Source: an uncultured Pelagibacteraceae bacterium (GTDB lineage Bacteria; Pseudomonadota; Alphaproteobacteria; Pelagibacterales; Pelagibacteraceae). From it: 55,420 bases of DNA. Under the pieces are notes generated by a model. The model had not been told where the DNA came from, made no database searches, and worked only from the letters and a program-made list of their open reading frames with translations. The stretch covers positions 1-55,420 of the forward strand of contig CACAFC010000007.1 of assembly GCA_902531765.1 (NCBI GenBank). Direction: 5' to 3'. Below, in pieces: positions 40,827-44,964 of this stretch. A program made the translations under genes and the position numbers. Within the stretch, counting starts at the first letter, position 1. Each line of letters opens with the position of its first letter.

Positions 40827-41789
40827 ATGAAAATATTAACAGTTCAGAGCAGAATGGGTATTGGAGATACCGTAATTTTCTTACCATTTATAAAGGCTTT
40901 GTCCAAAAAATTTAATTCACCAATAAGTATATTGGCAAAAGAAAACTCTAAAGCCAATCAATATTTACACCAGACAAAATATATTGATAAAATTCTTACT
41001 CTAGAAAGAGATAATAAAACAAATAATAGACATGGTGGTTTTTTTGGTATTTTTAAATTAGCAACTGATTTAAAAAAATATAGGTTTGATAAAATTTTTA
41101 TTTTTAATTCATCTTTAAGATTTAACTTAATTGCTAAAATATCAGGTATTCCACAAATTTATCAATATCCATTGTTCGCAAAAGACAAACAGCATATAAT
41201 TGAGGCTCCTAAGAAATTTTTAAAAAAAAATTTAGATTTAGACATTAATGAGGATCCTGAAGTACAAATCGATAATGACTCAATTTCTAATGCAGCACAA
41301 AAATTTCAAATAGATAAAAATACTACAAATATTCTATTAGGCATAGGTGGTTCTGGACCTACAAAAAGAATTCCTGCAAAAACTTTTTTAAGCGTAATTG
41401 ATAAAATATCAAATATGAAAGATTGCAGATTTTTTCTTGCTACAGGTAAGGCAAATGAAGAACAGGAAGTATTAAACGAAATTTTGCAGTCTAAATTTAA
41501 GAATTTTTGTACTCCTTTAGATAATTTTACTATCAGTGAAATTTTACCATTAATTAAAAATTGTAATATATCTATTTGTAATGACTCAAGCTTTAGTCAT
41601 TTATCCTCAGCTTTGGGTATTAAAACGATTACTTTAATGGCTGATACTCCCTTAATTTATGGAAATTATAGCTCAAAAATGTTTCCAATAATTCCAGACG
41701 GAGAAAATACAGTCACACATAATACTTTGGGTAAAGATAAAATTGATCCGCAAAAAATTTTTGAGAGATTTTTAGAAATTATTGCTTAA
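40827..41789 (+). CDS. Glycosyltransferase family 9 (LPS heptosyltransferase-like)
   Basis: 320 aa GT-B fold. N-terminal SRMGIGDTVIFLPFIKAL is the GT9 acceptor loop, and the C-terminal ADP-sugar region has NDSSFSHLSSALGIKTITLMADTP. Likely adds heptose or a similar sugar to the LPS core or another glycan. Isolated from the lipid A cluster. Its stop shares TTAA (41786-41789) with the convergent J-domain gene. Confidence 0.85.
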   Translation: MKILTVQSRMGIGDTVIFLPFIKALSKKFNSPISILAKENSKANQYLHQTKYIDKILTLERDNKTNNRHGGFFGIFKLATDLKKYRFDKIFIFNSSLRFNLIAKISGIPQIYQYPLFAKDKQHIIEAPKKFLKKNLDLDINEDPEVQIDNDSISNAAQKFQIDKNTTNILLGIGGSGPTKRIPAKTFLSVIDKISNMKDCRFFLATGKANEEQEVLNEILQSKFKNFCTPLDNFTISEILPLIKNCNISICNDSSFSHLSSALGIKTITLMADTPLIYGNYSSKMFPIIPDGENTVTHNTLGKDKIDPQKIFERFLEIIA

Positions 41790-42289
41790 GAAATATCGTT
41801 TAGCACAATGTCTTTAGCCTCATTAACAATTGAGGATAATCTTGAAGTTTCAGGAGAAATGTCAGGATGAATTTTTTTTTGAATTTTTATATATGCTTTA
41901 TTAACATCTTCTTTAGTAACTTTTTTATTCATATCTAAATTTAAAATTTTGTATGCCTCTGAAACTGATATAGACGAAACGTTATTGGTACCTGCTTGGT
42001 TAAAAGAAAAGCGACCAGATCTTCTTAATGTTTGAATAAGTCTAAAAAGAGAAATTAATTGGAAAATAGATAAACCTTTTAATTTTAATAAAGCTAAACT
42101 TGCCAAAGTAAGAGGTAAGGTTAATAAAAATTTTCCACCAATAGCAAACAAGACTGCTAAAGCAATTAATCCTAATATAATTAAAAATCTTAGGCCTTTT
42201 GAAATTTTCCTAGATGAAATGTTGGTTATTACTCGTAATAAAAAATAAAAGATGGTTAATATAACCACTGTATAAATTATTATATTCAT
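41786..42289 (-). CDS. Membrane-anchored J-domain protein
   Basis: 167 aa. N-terminal TM (about 2-20), a second hydrophobic stretch (about 36-66) and a C-terminal J domain: SVSEAYKILNLD..., IKIQKKIHPDISPETSR with the HPD triad needed to stimulate DnaK. The architecture (TM first, J domain last) is that of the Tim14/Pam18-like alphaproteobacterial family. A GTG frame start at 42316 would overlap ptrB; the ATG at 42289 (14 bp from the divergent ptrB ATG) is preferred. Confidence 0.84.
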   Translation of the reverse strand: MNIIIYTVVILTIFYFLLRVITNISSRKISKGLRFLIILGLIALAVLFAIGGKFLLTLPLTLASLALLKLKGLSIFQLISLFRLIQTLRRSGRFSFNQAGTNNVSSISVSEAYKILNLDMNKKVTKEDVNKAYIKIQKKIHPDISPETSRLSSIVNEAKDIVLNDIS

Positions 42290-42303
42290 ATATTTTTGAT
42301 TCA

Positions 42304-44385
42304 ATGAAAATACCACAACTTAAAAAAAAACCAGAGCTTAAATCTTGTCACAATACCACGTGGGAAGATAATTATAGTTGGATCCATCAGGATAATATTC
42401 TTGAGGTTTTAAAAGATAGTTCCAAGCTACTTCCAGATGTTAGGAAATATCTTGAAGAAGAAAATAATTTTACAGATCATAATTTAAAAGACACAAAAAA
42501 ATATCAGAAAATCTTATTTGATGAAATTAAAGGTAGAATAAAGTTAGATGATGAGTCGTTAAAATTTAAAGACAAAGAATATGAATATTGGACTAAAACA
42601 ACTGCGGTAGGAAATTATTCGATAAAACTAAGAAAGAAAATTGGAAGTGATACAGTTGAAGAATTTTGGAATGGTGATGAGGAAAAAGAGAAATTTAAAA
42701 CTAAATATTTCGGTGTAGGTGATTTAGAGGTAAGTTATAATGACAAACTTTTAGGTTATTCTTTAGACTTAAAAGGATCTGAATATTATACAATTTACGT
42801 AAGAAATATTACCTCAGGAAAATTAGTCACTGAGAAAATAGAAGAAACAAGTGGAAGTATTAATTTTAGTTTGAACGACCAATATTTTTTTTATTCAAAA
42901 CTTGATGAATTTCACAGACCAAGAAAAATATTTAGACACAAAATTGGATCATCAGTCAAAGATGATGAGCTTATTTTTGAAGAGAAGAGTGAAGCATTTA
43001 CTGTGGGCATAAGTTTAAGTTCAGATGAAAAATATTTTTTTATAACAACATCAGATCATAATACTTCCGAACAATATTACTTTGAGGTAACAGAAAAAAA
43101 TCCAAAGCCAAAATTAATTATAAAAAGAAAAAAGGGTGTAATTTACTCAGTCAATTCTTGGGATGGATATTTTTATTGTCATACTAATGATGATGCAGAA
43201 GATTTCAAAATCGAAAGATGTGATGATTTATCAAATCAAAAGTGGGAAATTTATATAGCTTCTAAAGAAGAAGTTTTAATCGGAGGATTAATATTTTTGA
43301 ATGATTGGATTATCAGAGGGGAAAAATCAAATGCATTGGGGAAATTATTTGTGAGAAACAAACAAACAGGAATTGAGGAAGAATTAAAATTTACTGACGA
43401 ATCTGTGATTGTGCCCGGTGTTTCATTGATACAAAGAAATAAAAATACTGACTTAGTCTACTTGTCATATTCATCCCCAAAAACACCGGGTAAAACTTAT
43501 TTATACAATTTAAAAACAAAAGAAAAAAAATTAGTAAAAGAACAAGAAATCCCATCTGGTCATAATCCAGATGACTATATAGTCGAAAGACTAGAATGCC
43601 ATTCTCATGATGGAAGATTAGTTCCACTTACAATTACCAGACACAAAAAAACAAAAATTGATGGATCAGCAAATTTACTTTTATATGGCTATGGGTCATA
43701 TGGAAGTTCTATGACTCCAGATTTTTCTTCAACAAGATTGAGTTTAATTGACAGAGATATTATTTGGGTAACTGCACATATTAGAGGGGGAATGGAAAAA
43801 GGAATGAAATGGTGGAAAGAAGGAAAACTTCTTAATAAAAAAAATACATTCGAAGATTATATTCACGTAGCAAAGTTTTTGATTGAAAAAGGATATTCAT
43901 CGAAAGGTAAAATAATTGGTATGGGTGGATCAGCTGGTGGTTTATTAATGGGGGCAGTAGTTAATCAATCCCCAGAATTATTTCTTGGAATTGTTATGGC
44001 TGTGCCGTTTGTTGACTCATTAACAACTAACTTGGATCATTCTTTGCCACTCACTGTTGGAGAATTTGATGAATTCGGAAATGCAAAAGATAAAAAAGAC
44101 CATTTTGATTACATCTATTCTTATGCTCCATACAATAATATTAAAAAAATGGATTACCCTCACATGTTAATTACTACAAGCTTAAGTGATAATAGAGTGC
44201 TATTCGATGAACCAGCAAAATTTACAGCCAAACTTAGAGATTTAAAAACTGATAATAATTTGCTTTTGTTAAAAACTGAGATGAATGCAGGCCACGGAGG
44301 TAAGTCAGGTAGAGATGGTGCCATTGAAGAAATAGCTTTTGACTACGCATTTATTTTAAAGATCTCCAAAAAAATTAAAATTTGA
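42304..44385 (+). CDS. ptrB: Oligopeptidase B (S9A prolyl oligopeptidase family)
   Basis: Serine peptidase cleaving short peptides after basic residues. 693 aa: seven-bladed propeller (residues about 70-410) and a C-terminal alpha/beta hydrolase domain with GMGGSAGGLLMG (nucleophile Ser543) and NAGHGGKSGR (His664). The N-terminal YSWIHQDN and LEEENNFTD match S9A. Cytoplasmic, no signal peptide. It is followed 95 bp later by hsp20, with the heat-shock promoter beginning 4 bp after its stop. Confidence 0.92.
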   Translation: MKIPQLKKKPELKSCHNTTWEDNYSWIHQDNILEVLKDSSKLLPDVRKYLEEENNFTDHNLKDTKKYQKILFDEIKGRIKLDDESLKFKDKEYEYWTKTTAVGNYSIKLRKKIGSDTVEEFWNGDEEKEKFKTKYFGVGDLEVSYNDKLLGYSLDLKGSEYYTIYVRNITSGKLVTEKIEETSGSINFSLNDQYFFYSKLDEFHRPRKIFRHKIGSSVKDDELIFEEKSEAFTVGISLSSDEKYFFITTSDHNTSEQYYFEVTEKNPKPKLIIKRKKGVIYSVNSWDGYFYCHTNDDAEDFKIERCDDLSNQKWEIYIASKEEVLIGGLIFLNDWIIRGEKSNALGKLFVRNKQTGIEEELKFTDESVIVPGVSLIQRNKNTDLVYLSYSSPKTPGKTYLYNLKTKEKKLVKEQEIPSGHNPDDYIVERLECHSHDGRLVPLTITRHKKTKIDGSANLLLYGYGSYGSSMTPDFSSTRLSLIDRDIIWVTAHIRGGMEKGMKWWKEGKLLNKKNTFEDYIHVAKFLIEKGYSSKGKIIGMGGSAGGLLMGAVVNQSPELFLGIVMAVPFVDSLTTNLDHSLPLTVGEFDEFGNAKDKKDHFDYIYSYAPYNNIKKMDYPHMLITTSLSDNRVLFDEPAKFTAKLRDLKTDNNLLLLKTEMNAGHGGKSGRDGAIEEIAFDYAFILKISKKIKI

Positions 44386-44388
44386 TAT

Positions 44389-44416
44389 CTTGAAAAAAAA
44401 CAAATAACTCCCATAT
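44389..44416 (+). promoter_or_regulatory. RpoH (sigma-32) type promoter of hsp20
   Basis: CTTG (in CTTGAAAA, 44389-44392) and CCCATAT (44410-44416), separated by 17 bp. Matches the enterobacterial CTTGAAA / CCCATNT and, with one mismatch, the alphaproteobacterial CTTG-N17-CYTATNT. It begins 4 bp after the ptrB stop. Expected transcription start near 44423, just at the first leader hairpin. Confidence 0.8.
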
Positions 44417-44423
44417 ATATAAT

Positions 44424-44482
44424 GTTGGTCGCCTAATGGGGCTAACAATAAATAAACTTGCTTAACCAAGGAGGATATTATG
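44424..44482 (+). promoter_or_regulatory. ROSE-like RNA thermometer in the hsp20 leader (candidate)
   Basis: Two hairpins fill the short leader. Hairpin I: GTTGGTCGCC (44424-44433) with GGGGCTAAC (44438-44446), loop TAAT, one bulged G. Hairpin II: CTTGCTT (44457-44463) pairs with the Shine-Dalgarno AAGGAGG (44468-44474) over an AACC loop, with a T-G wobble and a G-G opposition. A TTGCT strand facing the Shine-Dalgarno with an unpaired G is the ROSE thermometer hallmark. The start codon is 44480. Pairing was worked out by hand. Confidence 0.7.
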
Positions 44483-44926
44483 ACAAGTAAGGATTTATCT
44501 ATATTCAACTCACTAAGACCTTTTTCAATTGGTTTTGACGACATGTTTGACCAATTTGAAAATATGCTTGGTAATGGTTCTTTGACTATGCAGTCAAATT
44601 ACCCACCTTATAACATCAGAAAGACTGGTAAGGACAATTATGCAATAGAAGTTGCTTTAGCTGGTTTTAATAAAAACGATGTTGAAGTTGAGTTTGAAGA
44701 TAATTTATTAACTGTAAGAACTAAACAAGTTAATAAATCTGAAAATAATAATGCTGATGGAGAAATAATTCACAAAGGTATTTCTCAAAGACAATTTGCC
44801 AGATCATTTACTATAGCTGACGATGTGAAAATTAATGGTGCTGAGTTAAAAGATGGTCTTTTAACAATATCTTGTGAAAGAATTGTTCCAGAGCATAAAA
44901 AAAGAAAACTTATTGAAATTAAATAA
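44480..44926 (+). CDS. Small heat-shock protein Hsp20 (IbpA-like)
   Basis: ATP-independent holdase that binds unfolded protein. 148 aa with a short N-terminal arm (SLRPFSIGFDDMFDQFE, the IbpA-type start), the alpha-crystallin domain beginning YPPYNIRKTGKDNYAIEVALAGF and ending LKDGLLTISCERIVPEHKKRK, and a short IxI-type tail (IEIK). It has a strong but base-paired Shine-Dalgarno and an RpoH-type promoter. Probably monocistronic. Confidence 0.96.
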   Translation: MTSKDLSIFNSLRPFSIGFDDMFDQFENMLGNGSLTMQSNYPPYNIRKTGKDNYAIEVALAGFNKNDVEVEFEDNLLTVRTKQVNKSENNNADGEIIHKGISQRQFARSFTIADDVKINGAELKDGLLTISCERIVPEHKKRKLIEIK

Positions 44927-44938
44927 GTATACCTTGCT

Positions 44939-44959
44939 TGCGGAGATAAATTCTCCGCA
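44939..44959. terminator. Hairpin between hsp20 and the convergent lipoprotein gene
   Basis: Perfect 8-bp stem TGCGGAGA / TCTCCGCA (44939-44946 with 44952-44959) with a 5-nt TAAAT loop. No clear T run follows on either strand, so it may be a weak bidirectional terminator or a 3' stabiliser for the hsp20 mRNA. Confidence 0.55.
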
Positions 44960-44964
44960 GGTAA

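Follow-up and report, generated by a model that had tools for sequence, protein, structure and literature searches.

Two-hairpin ROSE elements are known from Pseudomonas, where the short ROSE-like leader of ibpA has been proven experimentally to be an RNA thermometer (PMC3669281). It is 61-62 nt long, follows a sigma-32 promoter and carries UYGCU, with the Shine-Dalgarno (SD) sequence in hairpin II; the passages of that paper that describe it report no codon complementarity. Pseudomonas constructs without hairpin I retained thermoregulation, although the reporter lost repression at 25°C when the hairpin I stem was disrupted in place (PMC3669281). The Rfam families ROSE (RF00435) and ROSE_3 (RF02523) consist of a 5' hairpin with a bulged G and a CC/GG apex, followed by a UUGCU hairpin around the SD directly before the hsp20 start. 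In the longer E. coli ibpA leader, hairpin I reads CGCC-UGAU-GGG, UCGCU faces the SD, and an extra hairpin lies in between. For SAR11, a possible RNA thermometer was mentioned in strain HIMB5, in text that leaves the gene unnamed (Stav 2019, PMC6429828), and it may be the same element in the same clade. This was the one possible mention in the open-licence PMC literature, where we found no explicit description of a SAR11 hsp20 thermometer; in the available portion of Meyer 2009 (PMC2704228), 'heat shock' or 'hsp' was not found.

Here we analysed the hsp20 leader in a 55,420-nt stretch of DNA (the window) from an uncultured Pelagibacteraceae bacterium. It has the two hairpins, the promoter type, the UYGCU motif and the SD position of the Pseudomonas element, from which it differs in being known by sequence comparison. 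With ROSE and ROSE_3 it shares a 5' hairpin that has a bulged G and a CC/GG apex, and the UUGCU hairpin abutting the hsp20 start, but it scores under their gathering thresholds, has no lower stem in the SD hairpin, is very AT-rich and is missing 30 positions that RF00435 has between the hairpins. Some SAR11 leaders carry the same CGCC-UGAU-GGG as E. coli ibpA. From this comparison it is very likely that the leader is a two-hairpin ROSE thermometer on hsp20 under an RpoH-dependent promoter, so that heat would act on both transcription and translation. A first-pass annotation of the window had predicted a ROSE-like thermometer here, and the motif, the layout and the Rfam ranking bear it out. It had also called the element minimal, which is apt, although two-hairpin ROSE elements were already on record.

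The hsp20 locus and its relatives

The hsp20 gene (44480-44926, plus strand; ATG at 44480-44482) encodes an IbpA-like small heat-shock protein of 148 amino acids, which matched IbpA PRK10743 with an E value of 4.1e-29, under the cut-off of that model. The gene upstream (42304-44385, plus strand) is prolyl-oligopeptidase-like and matched oligopeptidase B PRK10115, likewise under its cut-off. Between the two genes lie CTTGAAA, CCCATAT and a leader of ~57 nt, and every coordinate in the first-pass annotation proved correct. The source assembly comprises 1.05 Mb and is 92% complete. All 80 named hsp20 relatives retained were SAR11 (Pelagibacteraceae, Pelagibacterales or Candidatus Pelagibacter ubique), and the genus of the window is probably Pelagibacter. 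An hsp20 homologue was present in 115 of 150 related genomes and in 30 of 34 good genomes.

The 190 hsp20 loci collected, from two genome collections that overlap in genomes, gave 186 usable leaders; 149 of these had an Hsp20 identity of at least 80%, and 133 were distinct. Subsets of the 133 were used for the promoter analysis (132), the gene tree (132 tips), full-length coding sequences (131), the synonymous-codon ranking (130) and the natural-codon folding comparison (a random 40).

Two features of the surroundings were recorded. Beside the oligopeptidase gene, a small protein is encoded on the minus strand (41786-42316); as judged by eye from the translation, its C-terminal part looks like a J-domain (DnaJ-like), with a probable membrane segment ahead of it. 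On the 3' side of hsp20 (44930-44961) there is a terminator-like inverted repeat, TGCGGAG...CTCCGCA (44939-44959), preceded by ACCTTGCTTG. CTTGCTTG was found 3' of hsp20 in 98 of the 132 distinct loci with enough downstream sequence, and its heptamer CTTGCTT is that of the anti-SD strand.

An RpoH-type promoter in register with the leader

The -35 box of the heat-shock promoter is CTTGAAA (44389-44395, plus strand) and the -10 box is CCCATAT (44410-44416, plus strand). CTTG and CCCAT are 17 nt apart, exactly the spacing given in the first-pass annotation, with 14 nt between the heptamers. CTTGAAA was present in 104/132 leaders, and the 14-nt gap in 130/132. Promoter boxes scored 10-14 of 14 in all 132 leaders, compared with 6-9 in the upstream coding control and 7-11 in mononucleotide shuffles. 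The genome encodes RpoH (TIGR02392, 360 bits against a cut-off of 323), and the CTTGAA and CCCATAT-like boxes at a spacing of 13-18 nt agree with the E. coli sigma-32 consensus as quoted in PMC3669281. The RpoH control proposed earlier is supported by the gene and by the promoter scores.

The distance from the -10 box to hairpin I was constant in 117/132 leaders, with 7 nt between the -10 box and 44424 in the window. Together with the fixed gap between the boxes, this indicates a promoter held in a constant register with the RNA hairpin, and transcription is therefore expected to begin at hairpin I.

Hairpin I covaries around a conserved apex

Folding of the leader (44423-44482) recovered both of the hairpins annotated before, with a minimum free energy (MFE) of -14.8 kcal/mol (z -2.29; 3/200 shuffles equally stable). 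Hairpin I (44423-44447, plus strand), at the predicted 5' end of the mRNA, has a bulged G44431, which the first-pass annotation lacked, and the apex CC-UAAU-GG (44432-44439) with the loop UAAU; the structure rests on folding, covariation and the alignment with ROSE and ROSE_3.

Among the 133 leaders, hairpin I pairing was kept in 901 of 931 cells, whereas shuffles kept 803 on average and 821 at most. On the gene tree we inferred 30 double changes that keep the pair, and sliding the partner by +1, -1 and +2 left 10, 1 and 1; 72 one-sided changes kept a pair and 27 broke one. The lower stem varies freely with compensation, but little variation is seen in the apex C[G]CC-UNAU-GGG, which has the loop UNAU in 120/133 leaders. 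Thus the SAR11 leader has the stable 5' hairpin that precedes the sensing hairpin in ROSE elements.

By eye and with no chance comparison, the bulged G and the CC/GG apex were also seen in many other alphaproteobacterial leaders, and the CGCC-UGAU-GGG of E. coli ibpA resembles the SAR11 apex. The apex is altered in L260 (g12) and L072, and the sister family has no SAR11-type hairpin I. Since Pseudomonas constructs remain thermoregulated without hairpin I, the apex may be conserved for something besides sensing.

Hairpin II and the Shine-Dalgarno sequence

Hairpin II (44457-44474, plus strand), the putative temperature sensor, pairs the anti-SD strand CUUGCUU (44457-44463), which contains the ROSE motif UUGCU (44458-44462), with the SD AAGGAGG (44468-44474). 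The pairing described in the first-pass annotation, with G44460 opposite G44471 and a 4-nt loop, was exactly that obtained by folding 44423-44482. UUGCU facing the SD, with one G left non-paired or bulged, in the 5' UTR of a small heat-shock gene with the AUG just downstream, is the arrangement that characterizes ROSE. UUGCU followed by GGAG was present in 133/133 distinct leaders of close relatives, though the intervening length varies.

The first-pass annotation had looked to an alignment of related leaders for conserved strands and compensatory changes. The strands are conserved, and hairpin II contains no compensatory change: we found no two-sided change at 6 pairs in 16 sequences, and the strands are almost invariant in the 133. 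Leaders with GGAGT or GGAGA in place of GGAGG lack the outermost pair, and the last pair was broken in 4/16. RNAalifold on 39 leaders recovered hairpin I and did not predict hairpin II. In our judgement compensation in the SD hairpin is not usually required of a ROSE element, the SD being fixed.

Hairpin II alone had an energy of -2.9 kcal/mol at 37°C (z -1.00; 31/200 shuffles as good). When 18 nt of the gene past the AUG were added to the leader, the MFE structure did not contain it (z -0.65; 55/200 shuffles as stable), and its mean probability at 15°C with coding sequence was 0.41 over the 133 leaders, exceeding 0.5 in 48. Because the single-sequence signals are modest (z -2.29, -1.00 and -0.65), conservation carries the case. 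The modelled hairpin weakened on warming, with an energy of -7.6 kcal/mol at 5°C and -2.9 at 37°C. As a positive control we used the E. coli ibpA leader, whose response was almost flat (modelled probability of an open SD 0.005 at 10°C, rising to 0.018 at 42°C), and the modelled SAR11 temperature curves are therefore weak evidence either way. The median MFE of hairpin II at 37°C was -3.1 kcal/mol in the 133 SAR11 leaders, -4.7 in 28 sister-family leaders and -6.8 in 24 other alphaproteobacterial leaders; the weaker modelled SAR11 hairpin fits a cool-water organism, and base composition alone could explain the difference.

The Vienna fold selects the G44460-G44471 opposition for the window. A Y-G pair with a bulged G has been described for ROSE-like elements (PMC11342760), and the UCGCU variants (sister genus g228; sister family) fit that register as well as the G-G register, so both may occur. 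Two candidates were rejected. As a genome scan, TYGCT-N2..10-GGAG is unspecific, with 73 occurrences in the 1.05-Mb genome and 20 when read backwards. An outer helix between the linker and codons 6-8, part of the MFE structure of the window, was judged unconserved (codon 6 is CTA in 85/133 and the linker varies).

Assignment to the ROSE family

Comparison of 44380-44500 with all 4227 Rfam families gave six matches (E up to 10), the best two being ROSE_3 (21.8 bits, E 0.0078) and ROSE (18.5 bits, E 0.56), aligned in register through both hairpins. The Rfam comparison proposed in the first-pass annotation thus ranked two ROSE families first and in the right register, at scores below gathering: no match reached that threshold in the window or in 101 genomes, the best score being 21.8 against 43 bits here and 35.1 in relatives. 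The cut-off is strict, as RF00435 passed in only 1/289 genomes of the class (run with stricter filters).

Whole-genome ROSE_3 scans of the 101 genomes gave 24 matches in 21 genomes at E up to 5. Two of the 24 lie on an hsp20 leader (G056, E 7.7e-6; G029, E 3.5e-4) and are by far the best, the next having an E value of 0.13. The whole genome of the window gave no match at E up to 5, and 8/14 control genomes also gave one. Among 20 further loci, only three leaders matched ROSE_3 (E up to 1).

A covariance model was built from 16 SAR11 leaders; 23 of the 39 first aligned were omitted because MAFFT placed hairpin II one base off in CCTTGCTA leaders relative to CTTGCTT leaders. The CCTTGCTA kind was recovered by the model anyway (e.g., G034). 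The model found one strong site each in 71/150 genomes (E 1.7e-17 to 4.4e-5), the 16 model-building leaders matching by construction, and all 71 sites abut the hsp20 start by coordinates. The genome of the window has one strong copy (E 1.2e-16), the next match having an E value of 3.4. Further ROSE copies were sought there, and none rose above noise in the 92% complete assembly; weak second matches in relatives had E values of 0.003-0.5. We file the leader under ROSE despite its sub-gathering score because of the motif pattern, the Rfam ranking, the model matches and the class-wide occurrence.

The motif across Alphaproteobacteria

Class-wide, 47 RF00435 matches were listed and 30 loci fetched; all 30 had UYGCU ahead of the SD, and 25 preceded an ORF called Hsp20 by a rough test. 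Since these loci had been selected by the model, 29 others were then chosen by protein alone, as the best-scoring of 141 genomes with a match. UYGCU followed by AGGA or GGAG was found upstream of hsp20 at 24/29, a raw count with no shuffle control. Among the misses, L261 contains UUGCU and an SD and was scored so because a script misplaced its start; L266, L271 and L273 are, by eye, near-matches left uncounted, and L275 has none.

The sister family (L075 and 18 other distinct f2 leaders) has an hsp20 leader of another kind, in which a AATCGCTTAAGGAGGATT hairpin is invariant, with its own invariant version of the motif, AAUCGCUUAAGGAGGAUU, in 19/19 distinct leaders; L072 (G057) was set apart from these 19.

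Complementarity to codons 2 to 4 of hsp20

The anti-SD strand CUUGCUU is also complementary to AAGUAAG in codons 2-4 of hsp20 (44485-44491, plus strand), with seven pairs, one of them G-U, which makes this stretch a candidate competitor strand. It is possible, at odds we judge somewhat under even, that the anti-SD strand pairs with either the SD or codons 2-4, making a balanced two-state switch and not a simple zipper; the competitor would set basal SD opening at sea temperatures or latch one of the states. On the gene tree, the median number of synonymous changes over 118 sites was 12, whereas codons 2, 3 and 4 (ACA AGT AAG) had 1, 0 and 2. Codon 4 is the sole Lys site of 11 with an AAG majority and codon 3 the sole Ser site of 8 with AGT, and both run counter to the codon bias of the gene; in a neighbouring gene, five Lys codons within the first 16 positions are AAA in 96-100%. 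The pairing of the natural codons was among the strongest 2.8% (median) of usage-weighted synonymous versions, lying below 5% in 128/130 leaders and at 11.5% at most. Outside the genus, none of 26 class loci was at or below 0.05 on this scale (lowest 0.078, median 0.72), nor was any of six sister-family starts (0.75-1.0). AGT AAG is retained in two sister genera, in 7/7 g230 loci and in the single g229 locus, L297 (G473), where the Hsp20 N-terminus is different and AGT AAG stands one codon earlier, still opposite CUUGCUU.

In a duplex model at 20°C, pairing of the anti-SD strand with the codons had an energy of -10.2 kcal/mol in 104/130 leaders, and pairing with the SD averaged -6.8. Natural codons raised the modelled probability of an open SD at 20°C from 5.6e-5 to 1.2e-2, about 200-fold (40 leaders), but covered codons 2-4 and made the stretch from the SD to codon 4, taken as a whole, about tenfold less open in the model. 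This makes the sign of the effect ambiguous, and the folding model behind these values showed almost no heat response in the E. coli control. The CUUGCUU/AAGUAAG pairing is absent in G057 (0.635), at the G304 locus (0.957) and, by eye, in L300 (g228), and is weaker in g12 (0.184). With the codon usage of the gene itself, only 96/133 leaders were at or below 0.05 (maximum 0.27), and the g230 loci were at 0.07-0.11. Several codons up to codon 12 are likewise of unusual usage, so part of the codon signal may be a general start effect. The sequence pattern suggests that a competing pairing tunes or switches the thermometer.

Alternative explanations

Rather than melting alone, the leader may sense protein aggregation: free Hsp20 would bind its own leader, perhaps at the hairpin I apex, and repress translation until heat draws it onto unfolded proteins. 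This is possible though we lean against it, and both mechanisms may operate at once. In E. coli, IbpA acts through R93 and the 5' UTR to repress its own mRNA, and R93 and Y34 are well conserved in alphaproteobacteria according to the authors (PMC10474464). In SAR11 Hsp20 the residues aligned with R93 and R97 are Arg and the one aligned with Y34 is Tyr, with Arg104 in 131/131 and Arg108 in 130/131 full-length coding sequences. The hairpin I apex, almost unchanged above a covarying stem, is found again in E. coli ibpA. The K98 position, however, is Ser in SAR11, and E. coli K98A lost activity; moreover, the experiments in PMC10474464 used gammaproteobacterial proteins, and the passages concerned give no binding site within the leader.

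Heat control could instead be purely by RpoH, in which case hairpin I would serve only to stabilise the mRNA at its 5' end and the facing of UUGCU and the SD would be incidental. The weak hairpin II and its lack of covariation fit this account, yet UUGCU persists in every one of the 133 leaders despite varying loop and linker lengths, and the UYGCU pattern recurs at 24 of the 29 other alphaproteobacterial hsp20 loci, which makes the account very improbable. Still harder to credit is control by an upstream ORF. In the window, a short ORF runs from an AUG in the loop of hairpin I (44436) to the loop of hairpin II; the AUG is present in 122/133 leaders, and 11 such ORFs were reported in another SAR11 genome (Stav 2019, PMC6429828). 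But only 13 nt separate this AUG from the predicted 5' end, too few to accommodate a usual SD, and 11/133 leaders have lost it. Among the 122, the ORF has 9 codons in 41, 4 codons in 35, 8 codons in 13, no stop before hsp20 in 24 and other lengths in 9. This candidate was rejected, the AUG being common but the length and frame unconserved.

Proposed mechanism and significance

According to the two-hairpin ROSE reading, an RpoH-dependent promoter would produce an hsp20 mRNA whose first ~57 nt are the ROSE element. Hairpin I, at the very 5' end, would stay folded. In cool conditions CUUGCUU and the SD would be paired in hairpin II, on either side of a non-canonical G, and ribosomes would be kept from starting; warming would melt hairpin II and let translation begin. 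Heat would thus act twice, on transcription through RpoH and on translation.

Beyond this, we tentatively propose, with more doubt than confidence, that in this SAR11 genus and in g230 and g229 the ROSE element extends past the start codon into hsp20 itself. CUUGCUU would pair with either the SD or AAGUAAG, and in this genus the synonymous sites would be fixed for that pairing. The result would be a two-state thermometer adapted to cool water, where other ROSE elements have been described as a one-strand zipper, and the frozen apex would be a separate site, perhaps for Hsp20.

The element is of a known ROSE kind, in a lineage for which we found no explicit earlier description; the codon pairing and the conserved apex go beyond the first-pass annotation and are the parts that deserve specialist attention. 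The codon complementarity, if confirmed, would be a new way of tuning ROSE elements. That the apex recurs in organisms as far apart as SAR11 and E. coli raises a clear question, as Pseudomonas thermoregulation survives deletion of hairpin I. SAR11 bacteria are among the most abundant cell groups in the sea and are poor in regulators. A thermometer on their hsp20, conserved as judged by comparison, would be a concrete molecular readout of warming.
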